Counted from the stretch's first letter, positions 3,105 through 7,914 are shown. The stretch: DNA of 64,000 nucleotides from Halorussus ruber (GCF_004765785.1 NZ_SBIT01000006.1:124001-188000), one strand, 5' to 3'. Numbers and translations are program-made. The notes: generated from the sequence alone by a model not told the origin.

Positions 3105-3449
3105 TCATCGGAAGTGGTCGGCCTTGCTGGCGATGTACGCGATGACGAGCAGGTCGATGACCAGTGCGAGGAGGCTGAAGGTCACGAGGTCCAGCACCGC
3201 GCTGAGCGCGTAGAACCGGAGCGCCCACTTGTAGCCCCAGTACTGGAGCGTCCAGAGGCCGTAGAGGACCGCGGTCTTGCCGACTATCACCGCCAGACCG
3301 ACCAAGCCGACGATGGCGAACGGGCCGCCGCGGGCCATCGTGCCGAGCATCCCGAAGAACGAGAAGAACGCGCCGACGAACCCGAGGAGGCAGAGTATCG
3401 TGATTCCGAGCGGTCTGCCGCGCGAGCGGCGGTCGTAGGTGGAGGGCAT
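3105..3449 (-). CDS. Small multi-TM membrane protein
   Basis: A 114-residue protein from the ATG at 3449 with a short basic N-terminus (MPSTYDRRSRGRP) and three or four hydrophobic segments, among them ITILCLLGFVGAFFSFF and a C-terminal LALVIDLLVIAYI. The middle reads LYGLWTLQYWGYKWALRFYA, typical of small haloarchaeal DUF2127-like membrane proteins, though I do not assign it firmly. An upstream in-frame ATG exists, but a TATA-like CTTATTTCG on the minus strand around 3473-3481 lies about 27 bases before 3449, so the shorter form is preferred. It is divergent from the M50 protease gene; whether it belongs to that locus is unknown. Confidence 0.75.
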   Translation of the reverse strand: MPSTYDRRSRGRPLGITILCLLGFVGAFFSFFGMLGTMARGGPFAIVGLVGLAVIVGKTAVLYGLWTLQYWGYKWALRFYALSAVLDLVTFSLLALVIDLLVIAYIASKADHFR

Positions 3450-3588
3450 CGGCCAGACGTTTCGAGAGTGACGAAATAAGCTTTGGGCCATCGAGGTTCG
3501 GTCGTCACGACGAGTGCTCCTGGTACCTCGCTGACCGACGCAAGCTATTAATCGTTCCGCTCCTATTTTGAATTAAGAAATTAGAACA

Positions 3589-4638
3589 ATGTTCTCGCTG
3601 ACCGACCGAATCAGGCTCGAAACCGAGGTAGAGGAGACCGACACGCAGTTCGGGTTCACTTGGCTCCACGTCGACGGCGAGTACCGCATCCGTTCTCCCG
3701 ACGACGAGTTCAAACAAGTGCCGAAGGTCATCGTCGACACGCTGAGAGAGCAGGCGACGAGCGTGTCCGTCGAAGAACTCATCGCCGAAACGGAGACGCA
3801 GGACGCCGACGCGGCGGACACCCTGCGAGAGATGTACGAGGGGGGCTTCATCCGAGACGACGCGCCGGTCGAACGCGTTCGCTCCCCCGAGGACATCCGG
3901 ATTTGGCACCGGGCGCTCGGCGTCGGGGTGTTGCTGTGCGTCACCGGAGCGCTGTGGGTCGAGACGCTGTCGAGACTGGCCCGACCGTTCGTCGACAGTC
4001 CGTTCCAGTACCTTCTCGAGGCGATTCCGGTCCTGATTCCGGTGGTGCTCTGTTCGGTGGTGGTACACGAGTTGGGTCACTACTACACCGCCCGGAAACA
4101 GGGATTAGACCCGTCGTTCGGCGTCTCGGTCATCAACGGCGTCATCCCGGCAGTCGTGACGAAAACCCACGGCGGGTGGTCGCTCCCGCGAAACCGACGG
4201 ATGTGGAACACGCTCGCGGGACCGGCGTACGGACTCGTCTGGACGCTCGGCCTGTTTCTCGTCTATTACACGCTCGCGCCCCATCCCGGCGTCGCAGTCG
4301 CGGGCCTGCTCTGTTTCAACCTCCAGTTCATGGCCCTCAACCCGCTGTTCCACGGGGACGGGTACCTGCTGATGACCGACCTGTTGGGCGAACAGAACGT
4401 CCGAACGCGCGGGATACGACACCTCAAACAGCGTCGACCGACGTGGCTGGCGGCGTACGCCGCCGCTTCGTACGGATTCGTCGTCGTCGGATTCCTCGTC
4501 GACGCCGCAATCGGGTACGTGGTCGGGAAGTGGGCGGGGTCGGCGTTCGTACTGGCGCTGTCCGGCAGTCTCTACCTCGAGTCGCACTACGGTGCCGTCG
4601 GCCGACTCCGGGGACTCCTCTCGCCGTCCGGTGGGTGA
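3589..4638 (+). CDS. Membrane M50 (site-2-protease-type) metalloprotease with N-terminal PqqD-like region
   Basis: A 349-residue protein. Residues 1-100 are soluble and look like a small winged/PqqD-like domain, the fold used by RiPP enzymes to hold a leader peptide: strand-rich start, then FKQVPKVIVDTLREQ and SVEELIAET helices and a final EMYEGGFI turn. From residue 110 the chain is membrane embedded. HELGH at 160-164 is the zinc-binding HExxH, and NPLFHGDGYLLMTDLL at 251-266 supplies the third ligand (Asp257), together the M50 signature. Known M50 proteins of this architecture (YydH type) sit in peptide-modification clusters and process or export the product. The gene faces the 31-residue ORF at 4780 and lies beside two ATP-grasp genes, which supports a maturation or export protease. 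A TATA-like CTATTAATC is near 3545. Confidence 0.88.
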   Translation: MFSLTDRIRLETEVEETDTQFGFTWLHVDGEYRIRSPDDEFKQVPKVIVDTLREQATSVSVEELIAETETQDADAADTLREMYEGGFIRDDAPVERVRSPEDIRIWHRALGVGVLLCVTGALWVETLSRLARPFVDSPFQYLLEAIPVLIPVVLCSVVVHELGHYYTARKQGLDPSFGVSVINGVIPAVVTKTHGGWSLPRNRRMWNTLAGPAYGLVWTLGLFLVYYTLAPHPGVAVAGLLCFNLQFMALNPLFHGDGYLLMTDLLGEQNVRTRGIRHLKQRRPTWLAAYAAASYGFVVVGFLVDAAIGYVVGKWAGSAFVLALSGSLYLESHYGAVGRLRGLLSPSGG

Positions 4639-4743
4639 ACGGGCAGGAGGGTCGGTCACCGGTCGCTGACCGACCGTCGGTTCCGGAAGCAACGCAGTCG
4701 AGTTCACCGCCGAGGGGTAAATTGTTCTAGAAAGCTAGGAAAG

Positions 4744-4751
4744 TTTTAATA
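4744..4751 (+). promoter_or_regulatory. TATA box of the candidate precursor-peptide gene
   Basis: TTTTAATA preceded by purine-rich GGAAAG (a BRE-like context) in an otherwise GC-rich gap. The ATG of the small ORF at 4780 is about 32 bases from the box centre, giving a leader of only a few bases. It shows that the 31-residue ORF probably has its own transcript rather than depending on the protease gene. Confidence 0.6.
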
Positions 4752-4779
4752 CATTCCGCATGCTAATAACTAGCGCAGC

Positions 4780-4875
4780 ATGAAAGAAACGTTCATCGAA
4801 GCCCTCGGCGAGGAAGAGACGCTCGAAAAGCGCGAACAGACTCAGCACACCAGCGGACCGTCGGACGACAAGTAA
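4780..4875 (+). CDS. 31-residue candidate RiPP (graspetide-like) precursor peptide
   Basis: An ORF of 31 residues with its own TATA box and a hairpin-plus-T-run terminator 18 bases after its stop. The N-terminal half (MKETFIEALGEEETLEKR) should form a charged amphipathic helix and could be a leader. The C-terminal part, TQHTSGPSDDK, is short, lacks hydrophobic residues, and is dense in Thr/Ser and Asp/Lys, the side chains joined by ATP-grasp ligases as esters or amides. It lies between an M50 protease with a PqqD-like region and two ATP-grasp proteins. The precursor role is an inference from context and composition; I recognise no known leader motif. Confidence 0.6.
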   Translation: MKETFIEALGEEETLEKREQTQHTSGPSDDK

Positions 4876-4892
4876 CGAACCGGTTCCGTACT

Positions 4893-4926
4893 CGGCGAGC
4901 AGTCGCGCTCGCCGCATCGTTTTTTG
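4893..4926 (+). terminator. Hairpin followed by T run after the small peptide gene
   Basis: CGGCGAG (4893-4899) pairs perfectly with CTCGCCG (4908-4914) across an 8-base loop, followed by CATCG and six T (4921-4926). It would end the transcript of the 31-residue ORF. Confidence 0.6.
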
Positions 4927-5000
4927 GCAGGTGACGGATACTCGCCGAGGAGTTCCCGAACGATTTAGAGTCCGTTCTTCGCGGAGTCGAACGGACAGTC

Positions 5001-5939
5001 CTAACGAGAAGCGCGGTCGAGGAGGGCGTCGGCGAGGACGCCCGCGACGTCGGTTGCCCCGTGGAGGTCGTGGAACGCGAACCGCGGGCCGGGATTGACT
5101 TCGAGGAGCGCGTGTTCGTCGTCCGCGACCCGGAGGTCGATGGCCCCGAATCGAATCGGTGAGACGCGAGCGGCGCGCTCTACGTCGCGGCGAGTCTCGT
5201 CCCGGAGGTCGACCGGTTCGGCGTCGTCGACGTGGACGTCGGTTTTGTACGTCCACTCGTCCACGACGTAGCGACTGGTCCCGACGACCTCACCGTCGAG
5301 GAAGAACGCCCGCACGTCGTCGCCCGGGACGTACTCCTGAAACTGGACCGGGGCGTTCGACAGTCGGTCGAACGGCGCGTCTTCGAGGTCGTCCGCGGAC
5401 AGTCGGCCGGGAGTCGCACCCTCGGTGAGCGGCTTGAAGACGACCTCGTCGTGTTCGGCGACGAACTCGCGAGCGCTGTCCGGGTCGGTAGTGAACAGGG
5501 TGTCCGGAACCGAGATACCCGCCTCGACGAACTGTTCCAGTTGTAGCGGCTTCCAGTGGTCGTAGTACTGAGTCCCGGGCGGGTAGAACACCGTCGCCCC
5601 GTGGCGCTCGAACAGGCCGAGAAGCGAGCGGAAGACGCCCCGCCACTGGTCGGCCTTCATGAACGTGCTCACCGACCCCTCTTCCTCGAAGTCGTCCGCG
5701 AATCTGGTCAGTACGGGGTGAAAGACGTGATGGACCCACGGGAAGACGGCGGTCACGTCTTCGACGCGGAACTCCCGGTCGACGGTTATCGTCTCGCTAC
5801 CCACGTCGTACGTCACCGGGACGTCGCTCGGCCAGTCCGTCATGTCCCACGTGACGGGGTCGCCGCCCCTGTCCTCGATAGCGTCAGCGAGCAGTTCGAA
5901 TTCCTTGTAGTCGGTTTCCCCGACGAGTACGACAGTCAT
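5001..5939 (-). CDS. ATP-grasp peptide ligase, MvdD/RimK-like (A)
   Basis: A 312-residue protein. The N-terminal pre-ATP-grasp domain (MTVVLVGETDYKEFELLADA) is followed by the ATP-grasp core: YDHWKPLQLEQFVEAG with VPDTLFTTDP, which matches the region of MvdD-type ligases reading K-x-x-QL...AG...IPDTL-x-TNDP; VVFKPL with the nucleotide-binding lysine; FQEYVPGDDVRAFFLDG; and FGAIDLRVADDEHALLEVNPGPRF with the Asp, Glu and Asn that bind magnesium. MvdD-family enzymes make side-chain ester or amide rings in precursor peptides. It is convergent with the 31-residue ORF and about 100 bases downstream of the related gene at 6042-6989. Start at the ATG at 5939. Family assignment is firm; the peptide substrate is inferred. 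Confidence 0.9.
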   Translation of the reverse strand: MTVVLVGETDYKEFELLADAIEDRGGDPVTWDMTDWPSDVPVTYDVGSETITVDREFRVEDVTAVFPWVHHVFHPVLTRFADDFEEEGSVSTFMKADQWRGVFRSLLGLFERHGATVFYPPGTQYYDHWKPLQLEQFVEAGISVPDTLFTTDPDSAREFVAEHDEVVFKPLTEGATPGRLSADDLEDAPFDRLSNAPVQFQEYVPGDDVRAFFLDGEVVGTSRYVVDEWTYKTDVHVDDAEPVDLRDETRRDVERAARVSPIRFGAIDLRVADDEHALLEVNPGPRFAFHDLHGATDVAGVLADALLDRASR

Positions 5940-6006
5940 CGATTACTTCGATGTAGTTACTAGGTAAAAAACGTATGCACAGCCTCCGGATTAAAGTTCG
6001 GGCCTC

Positions 6007-6031
6007 GTCCGACCGGAGGCCCCGGTCGGAC
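6007..6031 (-). terminator. 10-bp perfect hairpin between the two ATP-grasp genes
   Basis: GTCCGACCGG (6007-6016) pairs perfectly with CCGGTCGGAC (6022-6031) over a five-base loop. On the minus strand it lies 11 bases past the stop of the 6042-6989 gene and is followed by AACTTTAATCC, so it may terminate that transcript or separate expression of the two ligases. Confidence 0.5.
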
Positions 6032-6041
6032 CCAGTTCGGC

Positions 6042-6989
6042 CTACGACCCGACCAGGTACTCGGCGATGCGGTCGGCGACGTCGGTCGTTCCCGCGAGGT
6101 CGTGGGCCGCGAACCGGCCGGGCGTGTTACTCTCCAGAACGGTGAAATCACCGTCGTCGGTGAGTCGGACGTCGACCGCCGCGTAGTCCGACGGGGCGAG
6201 TTCGCCCGCGCGGACGACTGCCTCGCGGACCTTCGGGTCCGGCGAGAGCGCGACCGACTCGATGGTGTCGTAGTCGACGGACGGTTGCTGGAACGAGAAC
6301 GCGTCCTCCGGGTAGTCGTATCGAACCATCCCCGCGAACTCCCCGTCGACGACGAACCCGCGCGTATCGTCGCCGGGGGCGTACTCCTGTAGTTTTATCG
6401 GAGCGCCAGCCAGTTTCCGAAGTCGTTCCGGAGTCAGGTCCGACGGACGAATCAGTTCCAGACCCTGTCCGCCGTTGACCGGTTGGACCACCGCCTTCGA
6501 GTGCTCCTCGACGAACGACTCGACCCGCTCGGGGTCGTTGGTGAACGTCGTCTCGGGGACGGGAATCCCCTCGTCGTCGTACAGTTCGAGCATCCACGGT
6601 CGGTGGAACGTCCAGTAGTGTTCCCTCGGCGGCGTCGGCGTCTTGGCACCGTGCGCCTCGAAGGTGGCCATGATGGACCAGAACAGCTGTTTCCACTCCC
6701 GAAGTTGCTTGTACCCGGCGCGCTCGGACTTCTCGTCGTACCACTCGTAGTGCCTGTCGAGCGGCGAAAAGACAGTCTGGACCATCGAGAACACGCCGGT
6801 CACGTCTTCGAACGGGATGGGTTCTCCGAACACGCACTCGCCGCTACCGACCGCGAGTTCGACGGGGTCTTCGCCCGGCCACTCCGTGACGTCGACCACG
6901 ATGGTCTCTTCGCCCCGGTCCTCCACCGCCCGCCGCACGAGTTGATGTTCTTTGAACGTCTCGACGTCGCCGAGAATAACGACAGCCAT
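6042..6989 (-). CDS. ATP-grasp protein, MvdD/RimK-like (B), with altered nucleotide-site lysines
   Basis: A 315-residue paralogue of the 5001-5939 protein, alignable over its full length (MAVVILGDVETFKEHQL start; VPETTFTNDP; LQEYAPGDDTRGFVVDG; YAAVDVRLTDDG; ESNTPGRFAAHDLAGTTDVADRI). The magnesium-binding Asp, Glu and Asn are kept, but two positions that are lysine in A differ: HWKP is FHRP and VVFKPL is AVVQPV. Both positions contact ATP in RimK-type folds, so B may be less active, or act as a partner subunit. The frame runs further upstream, but a TATA-like TTTGTATTTACGG on the minus strand near 7005-7018 supports the ATG at 6989. Pairs of ATP-grasp ligases in one cluster are known from microviridin pathways. 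Confidence 0.88.
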   Translation of the reverse strand: MAVVILGDVETFKEHQLVRRAVEDRGEETIVVDVTEWPGEDPVELAVGSGECVFGEPIPFEDVTGVFSMVQTVFSPLDRHYEWYDEKSERAGYKQLREWKQLFWSIMATFEAHGAKTPTPPREHYWTFHRPWMLELYDDEGIPVPETTFTNDPERVESFVEEHSKAVVQPVNGGQGLELIRPSDLTPERLRKLAGAPIKLQEYAPGDDTRGFVVDGEFAGMVRYDYPEDAFSFQQPSVDYDTIESVALSPDPKVREAVVRAGELAPSDYAAVDVRLTDDGDFTVLESNTPGRFAAHDLAGTTDVADRIAEYLVGS

Positions 6990-7191: not shown

Positions 7192-7914
7192 ATGTACAAG
7201 CACGTGGCCCTGCTGGTTCGGCAGGACGACATGACGCACGAGGAGTTCGTGGACTACTGGCAGAACGAACACACCCCCATCGCCCGCGAAATCGAGGGGG
7301 TCACGCGCTACCAGACCGTCCTCCCGACCGACCCCGAGAACGCCGAGTTCGACGGGTTGGCCGAACTCTACTTCGAGGACTTGGACGACCTCCACGACGC
7401 CTTGGGAAGCGAAGGGAGCCGCGACTACGACCCGGACAAGGGCAAGGCCAAGGAGGCCCGCGAGGACGTGGACAACTTCCTCGACATCGACCGCCGCCCC
7501 CGATTCATCGGCGAGGAGATTATCCAGAAGGACGAGGTGGACGGCGACACCGACGGCCTCTACAAGCACTCGGCCTTCCTCGTCCGACAGGAGGGCATGA
7601 CTCACGACGAGTTCGTGGACTACTGGCAGAACAACCACACCCCCATCGCCCGCGAAATCGAGGGCGTGGTGCGCTACGCCACGGTCCTGCCGACCGACCC
7701 CGAGAACGCCGAGTTCGACGGCATCGCGGAACTCTACTTCGAGGACCTCGACAAACTCTACGACGCCCTCGGGAGCGAGGGAAGCCGGGACTACGACCCG
7801 GACAAGGGCAAGGCCAAGGAGGCCCGCGAGGACGTGAACAACTTCCTCGCCATCGACGAGCGCCCGCGGTTCATCGGTCAGGAGCGACTGGTGAAAGACG
7901 ATACCAGCGAGTGA
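7192..7914 (+). CDS. Tandem EthD-domain protein
   Basis: A 240-residue protein made of two nearly identical EthD-like (ferredoxin-fold, dimeric alpha+beta barrel) domains of about 118 residues. The first begins MYKHVALLVRQDDMTHEEF, the second at residue 123 with LYKHSAFLVRQEGMTHDEF; both contain DYWQN-x-HTPIAREIEG, LPTDPENAEFDG, AELYFEDLD and SRDYDPDKGKAKEAREDV. EthD relatives serve in ether or aromatic degradation or are of unknown role; the His in HTPIA is conserved in the family. The fusion mimics the usual dimer inside one chain. The ATG at 7192 is preferred to upstream in-frame starts because the domain begins there and a TATA-like GGTTTTATTTGG lies about 30 bases before it. Confidence 0.9.
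   Translation: MYKHVALLVRQDDMTHEEFVDYWQNEHTPIAREIEGVTRYQTVLPTDPENAEFDGLAELYFEDLDDLHDALGSEGSRDYDPDKGKAKEAREDVDNFLDIDRRPRFIGEEIIQKDEVDGDTDGLYKHSAFLVRQEGMTHDEFVDYWQNNHTPIAREIEGVVRYATVLPTDPENAEFDGIAELYFEDLDKLYDALGSEGSRDYDPDKGKAKEAREDVNNFLAIDERPRFIGQERLVKDDTSE

Follow-up and report, generated by a model that had tools for sequence, protein, structure and literature searches.

A candidate graspetide-type biosynthetic locus in the haloarchaeon Halorussus ruber

A membrane protease, a 31-residue reading frame and two ATP-grasp genes

The window analysed here is a stretch of 64,000 nucleotides from Halorussus ruber (GCF_004765785.1, NZ_SBIT01000006.1:124001-188000; genome G000, L and G numbers being our handles for loci and genomes). 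A sequence-only reading had placed an M50 protease gene, a 31-residue open reading frame (ORF) and two ATP-grasp genes on the opposite strand between positions 3,589 and 6,989, and had taken them for the maturation system of a ribosomally synthesized and post-translationally modified peptide (RiPP). All four genes lie there, with the features given below, in which RRE stands for RiPP recognition element. The locus is probably dedicated to the biosynthesis of a very small graspetide-type RiPP.

3589-4638, + strand: M50/site-2 intramembrane metalloprotease of 349 amino acids with an RRE-like N-terminal domain; best match NCBIfam daptide_HExxH
3646-3861, + strand: RRE/PqqD-like domain (residues ~20-91), the predicted leader-binding part of the protease, from its predicted fold
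4066-4080, + strand: HExxH zinc-binding motif HELGH (protease residues 160-164); no change at H160, E161 or H164 among 19 homologues
4744-4751, + strand: TATA-like box TTTTAATA for the precursor gene, 29-36 bp upstream of the 31-residue ORF
4780-4875, + strand: 31-residue putative precursor peptide MKETFIEALGEEETLEKREQTQHTSGPSDDK; leader (1-20) conserved, core (21-31) fast-changing
4840-4872, + strand: predicted core TQHTSGPSDDK; T21, T24, S25, P27 and D30 shared by three species
4893-4925, + strand: terminator-like hairpin (8 pairs) followed by a T run, 3' of the precursor; hairpin kept in Halorussus salilacus
5001-5939, - strand: ATP-grasp A, a PsnB-like peptide ligase of 312 amino acids with all catalytic residues present
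6042-6989, - strand: ATP-grasp B, a paralogue of 315 amino acids with its ATP-binding lysines replaced; possible pseudo-ligase or partner

Both signals that had been ascribed to the small ORF as its own, a TATA box (4744-4751) and a terminator (4893-4925), are thus in place; one terminator-like hairpin plus T run was found where 0.5 would be expected by chance. The loci closest to that of the window are L029/L030 of Halorussus halobius and the plasmid-borne L031/L086 of H. salilacus. The sequences flanking the ORF diverge among the three species, while the ORF itself is retained, with identities of 84% and 71% in the two other species and with nonsynonymous changes concentrated in its last ten codons; the 3' hairpin is retained in H. 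salilacus despite its diverged flanks. When a profile was built with this clade left out, the three ORFs of the clade, that of the window among them, outranked all other six-frame segments outside the training set (n=7545), with an E value of 0.0028 against 1.1 for the best chance segment. Judged by this conservation, the 31-residue ORF is no chance ORF.

The sequence-only reading had called for a search for the small ORF beside the ligases in related genomes, and it is indeed conserved there: short ORFs sharing the leader pattern adjoin a ligase gene at 22 haloarchaeal loci, comprising the three-species clade and 19 further ones. They encode 28-47 amino acids; the closest ligase or protease gene is 43-256 bp away, and 20 of them run on the strand opposite to the ligase; AT-rich elements comparable to the TATA-like box of the window stand upstream of most of them. 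The leader they share is (H)(F/Y)(I/V)E-x-L...(E)ER-x-N, followed by a hypervariable C-terminal core. A profile of 12 precursors, trained without the clade of the window (A6) and run against all six frames of 391 Halobacteria genomes, returned 12 matches at E <= 8e-5, each of which has a ligase next to it; the held-out loci L032, L036, L077 and L078 were recovered at E <= 8e-5 and L080 at 0.0064. The precursors of L037, L041 and L076 scored no better than chance once their own group was left out, and this group is less certain than the rest. In the public records of H. salilacus and Halocatena salina, the precursor is absent from the annotation. A PDB sequence search of the haloarchaeal precursors against the plesiocin precursor chain gave nothing meaningful. 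At L036 (3596-4084, + strand) a second MSEKYIES start lies in frame upstream of the precursor, perhaps a decayed duplicate of its leader.

The ligases and their companion protease

The ligase family, delimited by a threshold of > 240 bits, occurs in 14 of the same 391 genomes, and the protease family in exactly those 14; all 15 protease copies in the sample lie <= 500 bp from a ligase. An all-against-all comparison of the cluster genes found these two families alone to recur widely. At one locus (L042 in G035) both the ligase and the protease frame seem to be broken or truncated, possibly a decaying copy.

All 17 aligned ligases match TIGR04187, the ATP-grasp ribosomal peptide maturase family, far under its cut-off, and the MvdC and MvdD models match them as well. 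Against solved structures, the ligase profile scored 209 bits with PsnB, the plesiocin macrocyclase (structure 7DRM; PMC10452190), 70-81 bits with CdnC, MdnB, PruB, MdnC and AMdnB, and 48-50 bits with RimK and ArgX. Identity to PsnB is 28-36%, and most of the closest ligases (32-36%) belong to a clade with TTxxxGE cores. PsnB also fills all top 15 places in a Foldseek search with the model of ATP-grasp A; as that model is weak, with a predicted local distance difference test score (pLDDT) of 54, the PsnB assignment leans on sequence. By this measure PsnB is the nearest characterised relative, far ahead of RimK or LysX. A grouping with non-peptide ligases, which would have spoken against a RiPP system, is thus not what was found: the ATP-grasp proteins match graspetide macrocyclases, chiefly PsnB, over RimK, LysX and ArgX. 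The earlier description of them as MvdD/RimK-like holds in that they are relatives of graspetide macrocyclases, and fails in that the nearest of these is PsnB and not MvdD. The ligase tree does not decide whether the haloarchaeal ligases form a single clade (support 77/54). No relative turned up when viral_contigs was scanned with the alignment of the ligases. Weaker ligase relatives of 150 and 125 bits occur at L084 (G410) and L085 (G311), where an RRE-protease and a detectable precursor were not found.

In ATP-grasp A the lysines that bind ATP and the D, E and N metal ligands are all present. ATP-grasp B has kept the D, E and N metal ligands, and both of its ATP-binding lysines are replaced (K->R and K->Q). 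The same replacements occur in all three species that have B (the window, H. halobius and H. salilacus). ATP-grasp B is probably not a normal ligase; with its ATP lysines gone, a role as helper of A, or as a partner that holds the substrate, is likelier for it than one as a second ligase. A ligase pair with one degenerate copy raises the question of partner proteins in such systems.

The protease of the window contains HELGH and LNPLFHGDG. NPxxHGDG is conserved across the family, and neither HExxH nor the distal D varies among the 19 protease homologues. All 19 match NF041824, the daptide intramembrane protease (daptide_HExxH), at best with E 2.3e-20; the window protein reaches 36 bits, the equivalog cut-off being 300. 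Eighteen of the 19 also match the LiaK epipeptide protease family. The nearest protease is the daptide RRE-site-2 peptidase rather than YydH. The daptide enzyme is a site-2 protease with an RRE fused to its N terminus, and it takes the leader off (PMC10036551); by analogy the haloarchaeal M50 protein is a probable dedicated leader peptidase.

Proposed pathway and competing explanations

Three parts, precursor, ligase and protease, are conserved and co-occur exclusively; the ligase is homologous to PsnB and the protease to RRE-site-2 leader peptidases, and the catalytic residues are intact in ATP-grasp A and in the protease. With 22 precursor loci, two enzyme families confined to the same 14 of 391 genomes and homology to PsnB, the idea of a RiPP system in a haloarchaeon gains clear support, and none of the three checks set by the sequence-only reading overturned it. 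These sequences probably define a haloarchaeal family of graspetide-type RiPPs in which a ligase related to PsnB is combined with unusually short precursors and a daptide-type RRE-site-2 protease.

In the three-species clade T21, T24, S25, P27 and D30 are invariant, and D30 is the only acid after T21 that is kept in all. In published graspetides the nucleophile precedes the acid (PMC7823629). Given this order and the single conserved downstream acid, the product of the window is predicted to contain one Thr/Ser-to-D30 lactone ring. What we infer is the chemistry and position of the ring, the place of the cut, the succession of steps, how the product is released and its biological role; the pathway would run as follows. 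The 31-residue precursor would be expressed from its own transcription unit and recognised by ATP-grasp A through the conserved N-terminal leader TFIEALGEEETLEKRE. ATP-grasp A would then activate a carboxylate, most likely that of D30, as an acyl phosphate, and a lactone would be closed with an upstream Thr or Ser (T24, T21 or S25) with loss of water; ATP-grasp B may assist as a helper or substrate holder. The RRE domain of the protease would next bind the leader, the site-2 protease would cut it off near the E-R-x-N/Q site, and a cyclic peptide some ten residues long would be released at or across the membrane.

Several observations weigh against this account. Three loci (L034, L035 and L039) have a ligase and a precursor without an adjacent protease; in the genomes of L034 and L039 the protease is found at another locus, and in that of L035 there is none. 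The all-against-all gene comparison revealed no dedicated exporter conserved across loci, and the 12-precursor profile built without the clade of the window missed the window ORF in the 391-genome search. The N terminus of the protease, earlier called PqqD-like, matches no RRE or PqqD profile in Pfam or NCBIfam, so that its assignment comes from fold evidence. The AlphaFold protease model was built from two sequences and its membrane part is poor (pLDDT 45); we therefore used the N-terminal domain, about 70 residues predicted to form three strands and three helices (bbb-aaa). Its best fold matches in the PDB are RREs and PqqD, namely TbiB1, lasso B1, McbB, PbtF, PqqD and radical-SAM RiPP enzymes, from a low-confidence model (pLDDT 60-77) and at a Foldseek E value of 0.7. 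The predicted fold thus places RRE/PqqD above all else, and we assign an RRE-like domain with modest confidence.

The composition of the cores is a further difficulty. Ser or Thr is followed by Asp or Glu in 17 of the 22 precursors, that of the window included, and the remaining five (L032, L033, L034, L038 and L040) have no Asp or Glu after the core Thr/Ser. Without a downstream acid, the standard side-chain link in the usual order is impossible in these five, which would have to use the C-terminal carboxylate or an acid further upstream, or undergo some other reaction. Their cores hint at ring closure on the C-terminal carboxylate, which brings in a different explanation: the ligase would act at the C terminus of the peptide and not on an Asp/Glu side chain, either joining a Thr past the leader end to the C terminus, as in a small cyclodepsipeptide resembling Gram-positive cyclic pheromones, or adding an amino acid in the manner of RimK. 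The five precursors with a Thr and no later acid would fit, as would the Halorussus-type peptides, which commonly have a Thr a few residues past the leader-end N/Q and then a short C-terminal stretch (mostly 6-11 residues). The RimK fold activates carboxylates generally, and RimK and LysX appear as distant relatives in the ligase profile search. We nevertheless consider this explanation unlikely, since the ligases are clearly closer to side-chain macrocyclases than to RimK, an acid follows Thr/Ser in most precursors and the acids of the TTxxxGE clade lie well inside the chain. The more specific proposal that haloarchaeal ligases join a Thr/Ser side chain to the C-terminal carboxylate in at least the acid-free Halorussus precursors, yielding such pheromone-like cyclodepsipeptides, is likewise rather improbable. 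If true, it would mean an archaeal peptide signal and a chemistry new to graspetides, made by a PsnB-related ATP-grasp enzyme and an RRE-site-2 protease. The acid-free cores are a clear chemical puzzle, and the part of the system where new chemistry could lie.

Biosynthesis of a graspetide-type RiPP has also to be set against a regulatory role of the small ORF, which could encode a small regulator or inhibitor of the membrane protease while the ATP-grasp enzymes act on something else. Its product is tiny and acidic, it adjoins the protease in the window and it forms its own transcription unit, opposite in strand to the ligase at nearly all loci. Yet the precursor accompanies the ligase even at the three loci without an adjacent protease, the combination of a conserved N terminus and a hypervariable, often Thr/Cys/Gly-rich C terminus is a leader/core pattern, and a graspetide core is recognisable in the TTxxxGE clade, which makes a regulator quite a remote prospect. 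Finally, haloarchaea commonly have ATP-grasp and M50 families, and ordinary metabolic and housekeeping members could have come together by chance around a spurious ORF; the exclusive co-occurrence, the 22 conserved precursors and the affinity of the ligases to PsnB make this hardly credible.

Relation to described peptide systems

Plesiocin (PsnA2/PsnB), a group 2 graspetide, provides the closest characterised ligase. The core consensus of plesiocin consists of TTxxxxEE repeats. One haloarchaeal clade (L077-L083) has similar TTxxxGEE or TTxxxGEC cores; plesiocin, however, carries four tandem repeats, whereas the haloarchaeal precursors have one core, which is shorter in the Halorussus-type peptides than in L077-L083 and in the window contains no TTxxxxEE. 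Four related loci of the TTxxxGE type only (L077, L078, L079 and L081) are adjoined by a gene for an HFX_2341-family transcriptional regulator (for example L081:7381-8325, - strand). According to a recent survey, an NHLM-type transporter is common in group 2 graspetides (PMC13097080); the haloarchaeal loci lack it and have an RRE-site-2 protease instead.

Daptides (MpaP) probably share the peptidase architecture, given the family match below the equivalog cut-off and an N-terminal RRE seen by fold; their precursors are likewise short, with an acidic motif conserved at the N terminus. They differ in that their precursors end in Thr and in that the haloarchaeal loci lack a conserved oxidative decarboxylase, aminotransferase and methyltransferase for C-terminal Dmp, the modifying enzyme being an ATP-grasp ligase. 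Microviridin (MdnB/MdnC) and the TgmB/PruB graspetides resemble the haloarchaeal system in their ATP-grasp peptide ligases, with scores much lower than those of PsnB, and differ from it in having the PFFARFL leader, methyltransferase and C39 exporter that it lacks. The window peptide has neither the PFFARFL leader nor a TxKxPSD core. Archalans, archaeal lanthipeptides of the same genus Halorussus (PMC10105419), are RiPPs of unrelated chemistry with class II lanthipeptide thioether rings. The predicted graspetides of group 36 are archaeal too, but in the survey (PMC13097080) they belong to Thermoprotea only, another archaeal class, and have another partner protein.

The main texts of the 2022 graspetide survey and of the 2026 survey (43 groups; PMC13097080) describe no haloarchaeal cluster; members may sit unremarked in the survey data. 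Two papers on archaeal RiPPs (PMC12144867, PMC10105419) contain no graspetide or ATP-grasp term, and we found no published description of a haloarchaeal graspetide system. According to PMC8939145, and to PMC12291112 for graspimiditides, it is not known which protease removes the leader of graspetides. With an RRE-site-2 protease strictly linked to the ligase, the question of leader removal becomes directly testable here, and precursors of this size are within reach of chemical synthesis.

A second, distinct archaeal graspetide-type locus occurs in another Halorussus (L043 in G002, 3354-6451), where a subtilase gene (S8, mycosin-like) overlaps a different graspetide ligase that scores 246 bits with TIGR04187 and 187 bits with MvdC; a serine protease there adjoins a ligase of a family known to make serine protease inhibitors. 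In the window itself, positions 7192-7914 encode a protein built from two closely similar tandem EthD-domain halves.

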